From Rhizobiaceae bacterium (lineage in GTDB: Bacteria > Pseudomonadota > Alphaproteobacteria > Rhizobiales > Rhizobiaceae): a DNA stretch of 49,442 nt. The stretch is taken from assembly GCA_016763155.1 (NCBI GenBank), contig JAESUH010000045.1, forward strand, positions 1 to 49,442, written 5' to 3'. This document shows positions 31,392-37,313 of this stretch, piece by piece (positions within the stretch are counted from its first letter, which is position 1; every line of letters starts with the position of its first letter). A program made the position numbers and the translations under genes. The notes below the pieces were generated by a model. The model had not been told where the DNA came from. It worked only from the letters and a program-made list of their open reading frames with translations, and made no database searches.

Positions 31392-32468
31392 TTATTTGCT
31401 TTCAGCAGCAAGCGTTTTTGCCTGCTCCAGCCAACCGTCGCGTTCGATGCGACCTTTAAAGGCCAAACGATCATCAACACGAGCAATGTCTTCTGCAGTG
31501 AAATTGGCAATTTGTTCATATTTGGTAATGCCAAGGTCGTGCAATTTGCCTTCCAGCACAGGGCCAACGCCGGAGATTTTTTTCAAATCATCAGGCTCGC
31601 CTTCTAGACGGGTAAACAATGGAGCGCTGTCATCAGCAGCAGGGGCCGCTTCTTCTGCAGGTGCTGCAACTGGAGCTTCTTCAGCTGCCGGGGCTTCTAC
31701 TGCCACAGGCTCTGCAGCAAGCGTTTCTTCAACAGCAGGCTCAGCAGATGCGCCAAGATCAATACCGGCAGCGCCTTGTTGGCGTGCAATACCGTCCAAA
31801 GCAGCTTTAGCAATCAAATCGCAATAAAGCGTAATCGCGCGGGCCGCATCATCATTGCCAGGAATTGGGTAATCAACTTCATCCGGGTTACAATTTGTAT
31901 CCAGAATGGCAACGACAGGAATTTTCAACCGTTTGGCTTCTTTAAGCGCGATTGATTCCTTGTTTGTATCAATAATGAACAAAAGATCTGGCGTGCCGCC
32001 CATGTCTTTAATACCACCAAGAGCGCGCTCAAGCTTGTCGCGTTCGCGAGTAAGCATCAAAAGCTCTTTCTTGGTCAGTTGCTCGCCCTCAGGGCCAACA
32101 AGAATGGCATCTACCTGACGCAGACGTTTGATTGAATTGGAAATTGTGTTCCAGTTTGTAAGCATGCCGCCAAGCCAGCGGGAGTTTACATAATACTGAG
32201 CAGATTTTTTGGCAGCTTCCGCAATAATCGGAGAAGCCTGACGCTTGGTACCAACGAACAATACGCGGCCACCGCCAGCAACTGTGTCAGATACAAGTTT
32301 CAAAGCCTGATCCAAAAGTGGAACGGTCTGAGCCAAATCGATAATGTGAATGTTATTACGGGCACCAAAGATGTAGGTAGCCATTTTTGGATTCCAGCGC
32401 GATGTCTGGTGGCCAAAGTGTACACCAGCTTCTAAAAGCTGACGCATTGAATAATCAGGCAATGCCAT
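31392..32468 (-). CDS. rpsB: 30S ribosomal protein S2 with a C-terminal helix-hairpin-helix extension
   Basis: 358 residues from the ATG at 32468 ([29 protein letters not shown]); a longer in-frame start is unlikely. Residues 1-236 are a complete S2, with FVGTKRQA (71-78), [10 protein letters not shown] (97-106), [10 protein letters not shown] and [11 protein letters not shown]. coli S2 has 241 residues. After it comes a linker of about 50 residues rich in Ala, Glu and Pro (237-288). A compact domain follows, about 289-355, [20 protein letters not shown] then [20 protein letters not shown] and [14 protein letters not shown]. This is a helix-hairpin-helix-like module known from the C terminus of alphaproteobacterial NuoE and some L21 proteins (family knowledge). 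Its role on the ribosome is unknown. Confidence 0.95.
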
Positions 32469-32822
32469 GATGGTAGTCTCCTTTACCGGTTGAACCTCCA
32501 CGGGCAATGAACAACAATCACTAAGGACTGCCAGTCACCGGAACGCGATTTTTTGACCAATGCCATATTGAGTTATCAATAAATTGAGTTATCAATCAGG
32601 GGCTGAGGGCCAATCGCGTGAAATACCCGCGTGTGGAATGGGCGCGTTATAGCTGATTGTTGCTGGAATGCAACCCCATTTTCCAACATGAGCCGTTCGG
32701 TAAGCTTCCTTTTCTATTGCCGTGTCAAATCGGCTTTCAAAAATCGACAAAACTGGGTTGTATTTACATAAACACAACTTTAGATTGTGCGCACCAAGTT
32801 TACTCAACCAAATTGTCGAGAT
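32469..32822. other. Divergent intergenic region between rpsB and the nuclease gene
   Basis: About 350 bases. It should hold the rpsB promoter and leader (minus) and the promoter of the secreted nuclease (plus). It contains a tandem 16-bp repeat (32567-32598). A 71-codon minus-strand frame crosses it (32592-32807) but lacks a recognisable family or a convincing start, so it is not called as a gene. Confidence 0.6.
32567..32598. repeat. Two tandem copies of a 16-bp unit upstream of rpsB
   Basis: ATTGAGTTATCAATAA (32567-32582) is followed directly by ATTGAGTTATCAATCA (32583-32598). The first 14 bases are identical in the two copies. Each copy contains the palindrome TTGA-GTTA-TCAA, so the pair looks like a tandem operator or a recent duplication in the rpsB leader or promoter. 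Confidence 0.7.
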
Positions 32823-33501: not shown

Positions 33502-34563
33502 ATGCGCCATTTTCCAATATTTGCCGATCTGAACGACCGCAAAATTGTTGTGTCTGGCGTTGGCGCTATGGCTGAAGCAAAACTGCGGCTGCTGATGAAA
33601 ACGGGAGCAAGCATATTCGTTTATGGCGAAGCTCCAGCTTCAATTATTAAAGGTTGGGCTAAGGCTAAAAAAATTACGTTGATTGAGCGAGCTATCGTTC
33701 CTGCTGATACAATTGGCGCTACGCTAGTCTATTGCGCCTCTGGCGATAATGATTTTGATCTGCAAACGGCTGCATTTGGCCGCGCTAATGGCGCTATGGT
33801 CAATGTCGTTGATAATCTTGAAGCGAGCGATTTCATCACGCCAGCGATCGTGGACCGCTCTCCGGTTACTGTCGCCATTGGAACAGAAGGCACTGCTCCT
33901 GTTTTGGCTCGGAAAATCAAATCGGATATCGAAACCACCCTTCCCCATAACCTTGGGCTATTGGCGCGCATTAGCGAAAAGTTTCGCCCGAAAGTGCAAA
34001 CTGTTCCTAATAGTCGAACTCGTCGTAAATTCTGGCAGAGCTTTTTCTTTGATAATGGTCCAGTTGCTCTCAACCAAAATGAAACTGGTGCCGCAATTGG
34101 GAAATTGAATCAATTGCTTGATAAAACTCTGGCGGAAACACCAGAGCAGGGCCGTGTCAGCTTTTTGGGCGCAGGCCCTGGTGATCCGCATTTATTGACC
34201 GTTAAAGCCAGCACATCATTGCAAAGTGCAGATCTCATCGTTCATGACGCTGGTATCTCATCTGAAATTATCGACATTGCTCGTCGTGAAGCAAAAATCG
34301 TTGAATATGGGCCAGACAGCAATTCGCTCATGGTCGAACACGCGGCGCAGGGCGATCACGTGGTTCTCCTGAAAGCTGGAGATCCATCCATATTTGGTCG
34401 GTTGAATGGAGAAATTGAGGCGTTGGACAATGCCCAAATCCTTTACGAGATTGTGCCGGGAATTTCCTCTACATCTGCTGCATCTGCCCTAATGTTGGGC
34501 AATCATCCTCCCAAGGATACACGAAACGAAGAATTTGAACCAATCAAACAGGCCGGAGAATAA
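33502..34563 (+). CDS. cysG: Siroheme synthase CysG with a truncated methyltransferase domain
   Basis: 353 residues from the ATG at 33502 (MRHFPIFADLNDRKIVVSGVG). Residues 1-150 are the precorrin-2 dehydrogenase and ferrochelatase part, with the NAD-binding GVGAMAEAK (19-27) and the essential Asp104 in NVVDNLEASDF. A helical linker follows, with RRKFWQSFFF. The uroporphyrinogen III methyltransferase domain starts at 217 (FLGAGPGDPHLLT, KAGDPSIFGR) but ends soon after EIVPGISSTSA (about 326). Full bifunctional CysG has roughly 100 more residues, forming the C-terminal lobe of this domain. The next gene starts 1 base after the stop, so nothing is hidden. Siroheme serves CysI downstream. Confidence 0.85.
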   Translation: MRHFPIFADLNDRKIVVSGVGAMAEAKLRLLMKTGASIFVYGEAPASIIKGWAKAKKITLIERAIVPADTIGATLVYCASGDNDFDLQTAAFGRANGAMVNVVDNLEASDFITPAIVDRSPVTVAIGTEGTAPVLARKIKSDIETTLPHNLGLLARISEKFRPKVQTVPNSRTRRKFWQSFFFDNGPVALNQNETGAAIGKLNQLLDKTLAETPEQGRVSFLGAGPGDPHLLTVKASTSLQSADLIVHDAGISSEIIDIARREAKIVEYGPDSNSLMVEHAAQGDHVVLLKAGDPSIFGRLNGEIEALDNAQILYEIVPGISSTSAASALMLGNHPPKDTRNEEFEPIKQAGE

Positions 34564-34564
34564 C

Positions 34565-34870
34565 ATGGCTCGCGCATTTACCCCCAAAGTTGTAACCGCC
34601 AATGATTTACTCGACGGAGATGTCATCTACTTGACCAAAAATGGTGATTGGTCACGCAAACATGGTGCGGCTCATCTGCTGACAATTGAAGATGAGGCCA
34701 ATCAGTGGTTGGCAAAGGCGGAAGCACAGCAGGAAATGCTTGTGGGTGCATATCTGGCGGATGCAAGTCTTGATGATGATGGTAAACCGGCACCGATACA
34801 TTTTCGTGAGGCTTTTCGTGCCAAGGGCCCATCCAATTACCCAAATCACGGCAAACAGGCGGAGCTTTAA
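34565..34870 (+). CDS. DUF2849 family protein of the sulfate assimilation operon
   Basis: 101 residues from the ATG at 34565, one base past the cysG stop. The chain begins MARAFTPKVVTANDLLDGDV and carries YLTKNGDWSRKHGAAHLL, then an acidic tail. It is the DUF2849 family, known almost only from alphaproteobacterial cys operons, where it lies between cysG and the sulfite reductase gene. No enzymatic motif is visible. A small partner protein for CysI or a siroheme handling role is an inference from position alone. cysI starts 3 bases after its stop. Confidence 0.85.
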   Translation: MARAFTPKVVTANDLLDGDVIYLTKNGDWSRKHGAAHLLTIEDEANQWLAKAEAQQEMLVGAYLADASLDDDGKPAPIHFREAFRAKGPSNYPNHGKQAEL

Positions 34871-34873
34871 TCC

Positions 34874-36571
34874 ATGTATATTTACAGCGATTTTGATGCA
34901 GAATTTGTCCGCTCGCGGGTAAAGCAATTCAGAAGCCAGGTGGAGCGGCGTATCGATGGCTCCCTGACTGAGGATGAATTCAAACCCTTGCGTTTGATGA
35001 ATGGCCTTTATCTGCAACTTCACGCCTATATGCTTCGTGTGGCTGTGCCTTACGGTACGCTTGATGCGCCGAAAATGCGTAAACTGGCTGATATCGCCGA
35101 TAAATGGGATAAGGGCTACGGCCATTTCACCACTAGGCAAAATATCCAGTTCAACTGGCCGTTGCTAAAAGACGTGCCGGATATCCTCGATGCTTTGGCC
35201 GATGTGGAAATGCACGCCATTCAAACTTCCGGCAATTGCATTAGAAACGTGACCGCCGATCATTTTTCCGGCGCTGCCGCTGATGAAATTGAAGACCCTC
35301 GCCCAACGGCTGAACTCATTCGTCAATGGTCCACCGATCATCCGGAATTTGCCTTCCTGCCGCGTAAATTCAAGGTAGCCGTTACCGGTTCGCCAAATGA
35401 CCGCGCCGTTACCAAAGCCCATGATATCGGCCTTCGCATGGTGCGCAATGATGCGGGGGAAGCTGGTTATGAAGTCATTATTGGTGGCGGCCTTGGCCGT
35501 ACTCCGATGATTGGCAAAATTCTACGCGATTTCCTGCCAAAAGCTGATTTGCTGCCTTATCTGGAAGCTGTGTTGCGCATGTATAATCTTCATGGTCGTC
35601 GCGATAATAAATATAAGGCGAGAACTAAAATTCTGGTTCATGAAACCGGGTTGGAAACCTTGCGCGGTTGGGTAGAAGAAGCCTTTATCGAACATAAATC
35701 CAGTCACGAATCCCCTTCTGAAGCACTGGTCGCTCGCATTGAAAGTGCGTTCACACCGCCACCTCTCGATACAAATATTATGGATTTTAGCAGCCTAGAC
35801 AAAAAGATTGCCGATGATCCGATATTGCGGTCATGGGTTGAGGTGAATACTGACGAACACAAGAACCCCAATTACACAATCGTCACCATTTCGCTGAAAC
35901 CGATTGGCGGCACGCCGGGTGACGCTTCTTCCAGTCAAATGCGTGTTATGGCCGATCTGGCCGAACGTTATGGCCACAACGAACTGCGCGTAAGCCACGA
36001 GCAAAATGTTATCCTGCCTCATGTCAGACGCGATGATTTGCCAGCAGTCCACGCTGAATTGAAAAAAGCTGGATTGGCAACTGCCAATGTGGGCCTGATT
36101 TCCGATATTATCGCCTGCCCCGGTATGGATTATTGCGCATTGGCCACAGCGCGTTCAATTCCTATTGCCCAGGAGATTGCCGAGCGTTTTGAAGATATGA
36201 AACAGGCTCGCGATATTGGTCCGCTGAAAATCAAGATTTCCGGCTGCATTAATGCCTGTGGTCACCACCATGTGGGCCATATTGGCATTTTGGGCCTCGA
36301 TAAGGCAGGCGTTGAAAGCTATCAAATTACTCTTGGTGGCGATGGCACAGAGAACGCAACTATTGGCCAGCGTACCGGCCCGGGCTTTGGTGCGGATGAT
36401 GTTGTTTCAGCCATTGAACGCATCGTTGACTGTTATATGGACCTTCGCGAAGGTCCGGATGAAACATTCCTGAAAAGCTATCAGCGCACAGGTGCCGATC
36501 CCTATAAAATCGCACTTTATGGCGAGAATGCCCGTGTAGAATCACTAAAGGAGACTGTAAATGCTGCATAG
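34874..36571 (+). CDS. cysI: Siroheme and 4Fe-4S sulfite (or nitrite) reductase
   Basis: 565 residues. It reduces sulfite to sulfide with six electrons, using siroheme and a 4Fe-4S cluster. It has the two-repeat fold of the family: KWDKGYGHFTTRQNIQFNWP in the first half, and the cluster ligands Cys415 and Cys421 in CPGMDYC with Cys458 and Cys462 in GCINAC in the second. The sequence resembles rhizobial one-subunit ferredoxin-type reductases annotated as nitrite/sulfite reductase. Because it is next to cysH and DUF934, sulfite is the likely substrate. Its end overlaps the start of cysH by 11 bases. Confidence 0.93.
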   Translation: MYIYSDFDAEFVRSRVKQFRSQVERRIDGSLTEDEFKPLRLMNGLYLQLHAYMLRVAVPYGTLDAPKMRKLADIADKWDKGYGHFTTRQNIQFNWPLLKDVPDILDALADVEMHAIQTSGNCIRNVTADHFSGAAADEIEDPRPTAELIRQWSTDHPEFAFLPRKFKVAVTGSPNDRAVTKAHDIGLRMVRNDAGEAGYEVIIGGGLGRTPMIGKILRDFLPKADLLPYLEAVLRMYNLHGRRDNKYKARTKILVHETGLETLRGWVEEAFIEHKSSHESPSEALVARIESAFTPPPLDTNIMDFSSLDKKIADDPILRSWVEVNTDEHKNPNYTIVTISLKPIGGTPGDASSSQMRVMADLAERYGHNELRVSHEQNVILPHVRRDDLPAVHAELKKAGLATANVGLISDIIACPGMDYCALATARSIPIAQEIAERFEDMKQARDIGPLKIKISGCINACGHHHVGHIGILGLDKAGVESYQITLGGDGTENATIGQRTGPGFGADDVVSAIERIVDCYMDLREGPDETFLKSYQRTGADPYKIALYGENARVESLKETVNAA

Positions 36572-37313
36572 ATTGTCAGATGACGCGAAAAGCTCCTCTG
36601 CTGGTGAAATCAGCGCGTCCGTTTTGAGTAATTTCTATGACCTTGAAGGCCTTTCAGCACAAAACCTGCTGAAAAAGGCAATCGAAGAAATGTTCAACGG
36701 CAGCATCGCTATGGTTTCATCCTTTGGCGCGGAATCGGTTGTGTTGTTGCACATGATTTCAAAGATCGACAAGTCTCTGCCGGTATTGTTTCTTGATACC
36801 CAATTCCTGTTTCAGGAAACGCTGGATTACCAACGCACCGTTGCTTATCGGCTTGGTTTGACCAATGTTCAAATCATCACACCTGATGCGAAGGCTGTAA
36901 GCGAGCGTGACCCGAATGGTAATCTGCATATCGATGATCAATCATCTTGCTGCACCTTGCGCAAGACTGAACCTTTGGACAATGCGCTCAAAGGTTATGA
37001 TGCATGGATCACTGGCAGAAAGCGCCATCAGGCTGATACGAGAAACCTGTTGCAACCGCTGGAACAAGGCGATGATGGGCGTTTCAAGCTGAACCCCCTG
37101 GCTGAATGGAACCATGCGGAATTGCGCCAATATATTGAAATGTTGAACCTGCCACCTCACCCATTGGTGGCAAAGGGTTTTGCCTCTATTGGCTGTGAAC
37201 CTTGCACAACAGCAGTTGCCGAAGGTGAAGACCCTCGCGCTGGCAGGTGGCGCAATAGTGAAAAAACAGAATGCGGTATTCATACCGACACAGCTTATGG
37301 CGGACAAATTTAA
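36561..37313 (+). CDS. cysH: Adenylyl-sulfate (APS) reductase, 4Fe-4S type CysH
   Basis: 250 residues. The enzyme reduces activated sulfate to sulfite with thioredoxin. Cys130-Cys131 in SSCCTLRKTEPL and Cys212/Cys215 in GCEPCTT bind the 4Fe-4S cluster typical of bacterial APS reductases; PAPS reductases lack it. Cys238 in KTECGIH is the catalytic residue near the C terminus. SSFGAESVVLLHM (53-65) is the nucleotide-binding loop. So this organism probably reduces APS directly. The gene overlaps cysI by 11 bases and the DUF934 gene by one base (TAATG). Confidence 0.95.
   Translation: MLHRLSDDAKSSSAGEISASVLSNFYDLEGLSAQNLLKKAIEEMFNGSIAMVSSFGAESVVLLHMISKIDKSLPVLFLDTQFLFQETLDYQRTVAYRLGLTNVQIITPDAKAVSERDPNGNLHIDDQSSCCTLRKTEPLDNALKGYDAWITGRKRHQADTRNLLQPLEQGDDGRFKLNPLAEWNHAELRQYIEMLNLPPHPLVAKGFASIGCEPCTTAVAEGEDPRAGRWRNSEKTECGIHTDTAYGGQI

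Follow-up and report, generated by a model that had tools for sequence, protein, structure and literature searches.

A truncated siroheme synthase of Alphaproteobacteria lacks half of its methyltransferase domain and probably keeps the remainder as part of the adjoining active site

The truncated cysG gene and its neighbours

The window (the whole stretch of DNA analysed, 49,442 nucleotides) contains a cysG gene whose product is 353 residues long, compared with 447-498 residues in the full-length relatives that were read. Its start is the ATG at 33502, the place where aligned relatives also begin, and its TAA stop occupies 34561-34563. The features of the locus are as follows.

33502..34563, forward strand: cysG, truncated siroheme synthase, 353 residues plus stop (frame and domain matches)
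33502..34116, forward strand: CysG-B half, residues 1-205, precorrin-2 dehydrogenase/ferrochelatase with dimerisation and helical domains (PF13241, PF10414)
33811-33813, forward strand: D104, within the CysG-B half
33898-33900, forward strand: P133, within the CysG-B half
34144..34467, forward strand: SUMT N-lobe stub, residues 215-322 (PF00590, 2-126 of 212; five strands predicted)
34282..34293, forward strand: RREA motif, residues 261-264, equivalent to Salmonella R260, R261, D262 and A263; it would form a wall of the pocket in CysG-B
34306..34314, forward strand: position at which the K270 loop of Salmonella CysG is deleted (alignments)
34366..34386, forward strand: LLKAGDP, residues 289-295, an altered RLKGGDP motif
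34483..34560, forward strand: C-terminal tail, residues 328-353, predicted to be disordered
34565..34870, forward strand: DUF2849 gene, next in the run (PF11011)
34874..36571, forward strand: siroheme-type nitrite/sulfite reductase (cysI-like), presumed siroheme user (PF01077 and PF03460 over cut-off)
36561..37313, forward strand: cysH, phosphoadenylyl-sulfate reductase (NF002537 over cut-off)

Pfam matched the dehydrogenase/ferrochelatase half of the window CysG in full (PF13241, 1-104 of 104; CysG dimeriser, 1-58 of 58), with Asp104 and P133 both present, and the original prediction that this half is intact was confirmed. In the methyltransferase (SUMT) half, PF00590 covered only 2-126 of 212 positions (85.4 bits, cut-off 27.8) and the SUMT model TIGR01469 only 1-124 of 238, with 115 bits against a cut-off of 185; the score for the trifunctional siroheme synthase model NF007922 was also below cut-off (331.7 bits, cut-off 400). 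The window CysG is thus not a complete two-lobe CobA/SUMT methylase, and the loss of the C-lobe that had been read at 34150-34563 holds. The same is true of the change from RLKGGDP to LLKAGDP, full-length relatives having RLKGGDP or RLKSGDP, while the estimate of about 10 residues after VPGISSTSA was too low, as we counted 27.

By sequence, the best match among solved structures was Salmonella CysG (1pjq), aligned over residues 1-330, and the window model was closest in fold to CysG chains (TM-scores 0.42-0.49). Alignments also showed that the window protein is without the loop that carries K270 in Salmonella, although its stub is among the less decayed ones read, with the GAGPG loop, D249 and GDP all retained. 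With the C-lobe and the K270 loop gone, SUMT activity of the window CysG is very unlikely. Dehydrogenase and chelatase activities are putative functions of the protein, in which equivalents of the SUMT-derived pocket residues are present: R261, R262 and E263 align without gaps with Salmonella R260, R261 and D262.

None of the NCBIfam models listed for the cysI-like reductase reached its cut-off. Elsewhere in the window, 31392-32507 on the reverse strand encodes ribosomal protein S2 with a C-terminal extension, in which a helix-hairpin-helix match (PF14520) was below cut-off.

Recurrence of truncation in Alphaproteobacteria

A family search of 199 genomes used residues 1-213 as the query. Among the 149 matches listed, 11 lay in open frames of 355-402 residues, the other 138 in frames of 475-642, a split that goes beyond chance, and none was shorter than 355. 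A draw of 389 genomes from across the class gave 132 listed matches, 25 of them 408 residues or shorter; the query of this survey spanned the RR motif at E 1e-30, so proteins consisting of CysG-B only or cut before the motif may be under-counted. Of these 25, 21 from 20 genomes ended at a true stop, two were interrupted by contig ends, and the remaining two belonged to the window's own genome. Among the best 80 of 579 relatives, three were truncated (two in Amylibacter records and one in a Rhodobacteraceae record) and one had an in-frame stop.

Altogether, 39 truncated CysGs were read in Alphaproteobacteria, truncated being defined as fewer than 400 residues in the analyses of these 39 sequences. 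Motif and length work used all 39, one alignment used 18 and the comparison with CobA used 14 (G002 was omitted for its undetermined bases). Left out of the counts were the second copy of G546 and the CysG of G388, whose frames run off contig ends; that of G264, a 335-residue piece of a 458-residue frame; and L156, a Neomegalonema full-length CysG frame interrupted by one in-frame stop at about codon 206.

Trees were built from residues 1-205. A careful tree of 54 sequences, 15 of them truncated, had nine changes between full and truncated forms, of which at least eight were forced by well-supported branches; a quick-method tree of 122 sequences, 39 of them truncated, had 20 changes, at least nine of them forced. 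The trees thus force at least eight to nine independent changes. These counts are directionless; with full-length forms in the majority, they are most naturally read as loss of the SUMT lobe.

What the stub keeps and loses

The four sets of SUMT motifs occurred together in 83 of 83 full-length proteins and in none of the 39 truncated forms, in which the D248 equivalent was found 31 times, the GGPG loop 10 times, K270 six times and an exact GDP once. D104 and P133 were retained in all 39, as was the pattern RR[DE]A (26 RRDA, 13 RREA), and R261, R262 and A264 were the only invariant positions of the 109 in the stub. Full-length proteins had the exact pattern in the aligned columns in 79 of 83 cases and lacked it in four. 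The arginine positions were not conserved in 18 free-standing CobA proteins (commonest residues R, 39%, and P, 28%), and the constraint is therefore specific to CysG. The pattern was followed by 31-110 residues in the 39 truncated forms and by 198-236 in 80 full-length proteins with the pattern, leaving a gap between 110 and 198.

Structures and mutants of Salmonella CysG show that the back wall of the CysG-B (dehydrogenase/chelatase) pocket is made up of R260, R261 and D262, which belong to the SUMT module (PMC7018833). In an S128A background, R260A had no dehydrogenase activity and about 100-fold lower chelatase activity, and R261A had about 40-fold lower dehydrogenase and about 20-fold lower chelatase activity (PMC7018833). 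In complementation of a cysG mutant, R261A was effective whereas R260A did poorly, and the authors did not regard D262 as strictly necessary (PMC7018833). These residues therefore enhance activity but are not indispensable, and in that test they mattered more for activity than for mere survival. The authors suggested that the pocket contribution of the SUMT module may be the evolutionary benefit of the CysG fusion (PMC7018833); loss of SUMT with retention of the RR residues is the pattern that this suggestion predicts.

The stub might instead be kept for folding or dimer stability, with the arginines serving that purpose and not substrate binding. Other well-kept stub positions look structural (A243 in 38 of 39, D244 in 37, G284 in 37, L290 in 33), and the sequence data are compatible with such a role. 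We nevertheless consider it unlikely, because the invariant positions are those that line the pocket in Salmonella and because the crystal structures of R260A and R261A are described as similar to wild type (PMC7018833).

AlphaFold2 predicted five strands for the window stub; its mean pLDDT per block was 87-95 over residues 231-320, apart from 66 at 291-300, and 76 at 221-230; confidence was low at 116-129 and 328-353, and pTM was 0.51. For the CysG of G523, which at 273 residues has the fewest after the motif, four stub strands were predicted, with block means of 82-92 over 191-260 and a pTM of 0.64. The stub is thus predicted to be folded in both proteins; both models are single chains, which do not show the position of the stub relative to the dimer pocket.

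Selection was compared as pN/pS in 10 truncated pairs, two of which share a genome and in which synonymous differences were often near saturation. Values were 0.09-0.35 for residues 1-205, 0.08-0.49 for residues 213-268 and 0.10-0.81 for residues 269-322; past residue 322 they were 0.26-1.20 in the six computable truncated pairs. Seven full-length pairs had values of 0.05-0.21 for residues 213-268. Two truncated pairs were fairly relaxed before the motif (0.42 and 0.49), and the pair own2-G002 was relaxed over the whole stub (0.53).

Relaxation past residue 322, and in several pairs over 269-322, would be expected if the stub were functionless, decaying debris of a redundant methyltransferase domain, as would the loss of SUMT motifs. 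Such decay is at odds with the presence of RR[DE]A in 39 of 39 proteins, pN/pS values that in most pairs stay low as far as the motif, the fold predicted in two models and the empty range of post-motif lengths between 110 and 198 residues in the set read, and we regard it as very improbable.

Origin of the cut and the window's own assembly

The window is contig C177 of its own assembly (G000), which has 3.99 Mb in 256 contigs and is 85% complete and 4.4% contaminated. This fragmentation, together with the finding by tree and alignment that the nearest relatives of the window CysG are full length, might point to an assembly error or a recent pseudogene. However, the K270 loop and R289, both upstream of the cut, are lost as well, the spacing to the DUF2849 gene is that of relatives, and the same kind of truncation occurs in assemblies of one to four contigs (G147, G140, G016, G043 and G007), leaving this explanation with hardly any probability. 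The original prediction had named full-length relatives and an assembly deletion as grounds against itself: the comparison of lengths did return full-length nearest relatives, whereas the truncations in few-contig assemblies argue against a deletion artefact.

Where relatives in the window's group have a full-length cysG, it abuts or overlaps the DUF2849 gene, with spacings of -4 to +4 bases, and truncated genes of the group keep this tight spacing (window +1, G147 -1). The next ATG, at 34565, follows the cysG stop by one base, as had been stated, and is closely preceded by GGAG inside the cysG tail. The unchanged spacing and the GGAG before the start suggest an internal deletion that spared the end of the cysG gene. 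A frameshift or late stop as the cause of the short CysG was rejected, the frame being open and the next gene lying at the relatives' spacing; the earlier exclusion of a simple late frameshift thus stands.

Three PF00590 matches were found in the own assembly at E 0.01: an RsmI-like protein, which we take to be RsmI, the window CysG and a second CysG. None is a C-lobe alone, so a SUMT split between two genes was rejected, and supply of the missing lobe in trans by a separate half-SUMT protein, which the loss of N-lobe SUMT motifs also speaks against, has almost no probability. The second CysG (contig C187, L034 5688-6746, reverse strand, 352 residues) adjoins nirB and is likewise truncated and degenerate, with RREA kept.

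No intact SUMT or CobA was found by PF00590 and TIGR01469 searches of this 85% complete assembly. The genus-mate G001 has cobA within a cluster with other methylases and CobN. Ten open reading frames of the right flank of this cluster, the flank that was compared, are matched in order by own contig C48, whose edge falls inside the SDR gene that adjoins cobQ (89.8% identical across residues 1-177 of 277); cob gene names other than cobA and cobN, as well as SDR and thiolase, are our presumed assignments from sequence. Because the contig breaks where the genus-mate's cob cluster begins, an assembly gap is likelier than loss of cobA. Loss from the window's species is less likely; on its side, neither CobN nor a cobalamin riboswitch was found in G000, although G001 carries such a riboswitch outside its cob cluster too.

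Free-standing CobA as the source of precorrin-2

We searched 32 genomes of at least 90% completeness in which a truncated CysG had been read. The first set contributed 12 of them (G012, in which a full CysG is present too, and 11 others) and the class set 20. A free-standing SUMT, defined as one over the TIGR01469 cut-off in a frame too short for a full CysG, was present in all 32 and was the only SUMT over cut-off in 28, the exceptions being G012, G440, G389 and G492. CobA is also present in G191, which was left out of the 32 as its CysG was unread. No SUMT over cut-off was found in G000 (85% complete) or G002 (68%). The earlier expectation that siroheme would need another methyltransferase is therefore supported by the lack of an intact SUMT in the own assembly and the free-standing SUMT in 32 of 32 relatives with a truncated CysG; the proposed search for a separate cobA was negative in the own genome and positive in relatives. 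The single-contig genome G499 has two truncated cysG genes (L234, L235) and one SUMT over cut-off.

SUMT activity in cells with a truncated CysG thus probably comes from free-standing CobA. All five genomes checked with a full-length CysG (G055, G213, G005, G011 and G012) have CobA too, so that it is at best a precondition of truncation and does not discriminate.

CobN was not found in G007, G125 and G191 (1.0-1.5 Mb) or in G132. In the 16 kb read of G125, a 1.5 Mb genome, the cob cluster (L218 5251-12667) is fragmented, and cobA is the one recognised gene of it that remains intact. The 18 kb read of G007 contains cobA without other cob genes, and in the 12 kb read of G132 only cobT, cobS and cobA were recognised, together at L217 3827-6456, the first two names being presumed from sequence. 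Retention of cobA amid a broken or absent cob cluster fits a need for siroheme.

CobT (PF06213) was rejected as a marker of the cob pathway, as it occurred in 10 of 11 genomes, including G007, G125, G132 and G191 without CobN, and was absent from G001 with its cob cluster. CobT was present in G007, G125, G132, G191, G000 and G002 although CobN was not found there.

Proposed role of the stub and comparison with known systems

We propose that the protein has two functions, precorrin-2 dehydrogenase and sirohydrochlorin ferrochelatase, and bears a dead half-methyltransferase. Free-standing CobA would make precorrin-2, rendering the fused SUMT activity dispensable and permitting deletion of the C-lobe. 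The N-lobe would be kept because R261, R262 and E263 help to bind precorrin-2 and sirohydrochlorin within the adjacent CysG-B active site, a role that others have shown in Salmonella and that the invariance of the motif suggests here; in the window protein, too, the stub would reach the pocket. The trees show that this endpoint was arrived at repeatedly in Alphaproteobacteria. Siroheme synthesis in each such cell would then hinge on cobA, and this would account for the survival of cobA when the rest of the cob cluster breaks up or disappears. This explanation as a whole, with a dead half-SUMT kept as part of the CysG-B pocket and CobA methylating, we hold to be very likely.

A broader statement also appears likely, if less firmly so: that a methyltransferase domain has been reduced, many times independently, to a dead half-domain that now serves chiefly to equip the active site of the enzyme fused to it with two arginines and an acid, that trimming never reaches the motif in the forms read, that cobA is locked in for siroheme even without the rest of the B12 pathway, and that the question posed in PMC7018833, whether the CysG fusion is of benefit to the dehydrogenase/chelatase, is thereby answered by evolution. 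The main reading of the original prediction, C-lobe loss and the need for another methyltransferase, is supported; the constraint on the remaining stub and the likely function of the stub are points it did not contain.

If correct, the proposal would provide a case in which a domain fusion stays beneficial after the fused domain has lost its own activity. The truncated forms would amount to dozens of natural deletion experiments bearing on the reason for the CysG fusion, which became a question once the Salmonella structures had been solved. The proposal also predicts that siroheme synthesis in many Alphaproteobacteria draws on free-standing CobA. Finding cobA by itself would then not indicate B12 synthesis, and annotation of the truncated genes as trifunctional siroheme synthases should be avoided. 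Recurrent CysG truncation was not found in the titles and abstract starts of the open-licence papers searched.

Among known systems, CysG of Salmonella and E. coli shares with the window CysG the domain order, D104, P133 and the RR-acid motif; the Salmonella SUMT is complete and active, whereas the window protein is without the C-lobe and its stub has altered SUMT motifs. CobA (TIGR01469) has an N-lobe homologous to the window stub but is a complete two-lobe enzyme without a conserved RR pair in the 18 sequences compared. Yeast Met8p and Bacillus SirC are likewise dehydrogenases without an active SUMT, which resides on a separate protein, and Met8p is also a ferrochelatase (PMC4063343, PMC7018833). 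Met8p is described as being without R260, R261 and D262 (PMC7018833), whereas the window CysG retains a SUMT stub with these residues. In proteins of the Met8p/SirC type no SUMT-derived sequence is expected, and the window CysG is set apart from them by its PF00590 stub, at 85.4 bits against a cut-off of 27.8.
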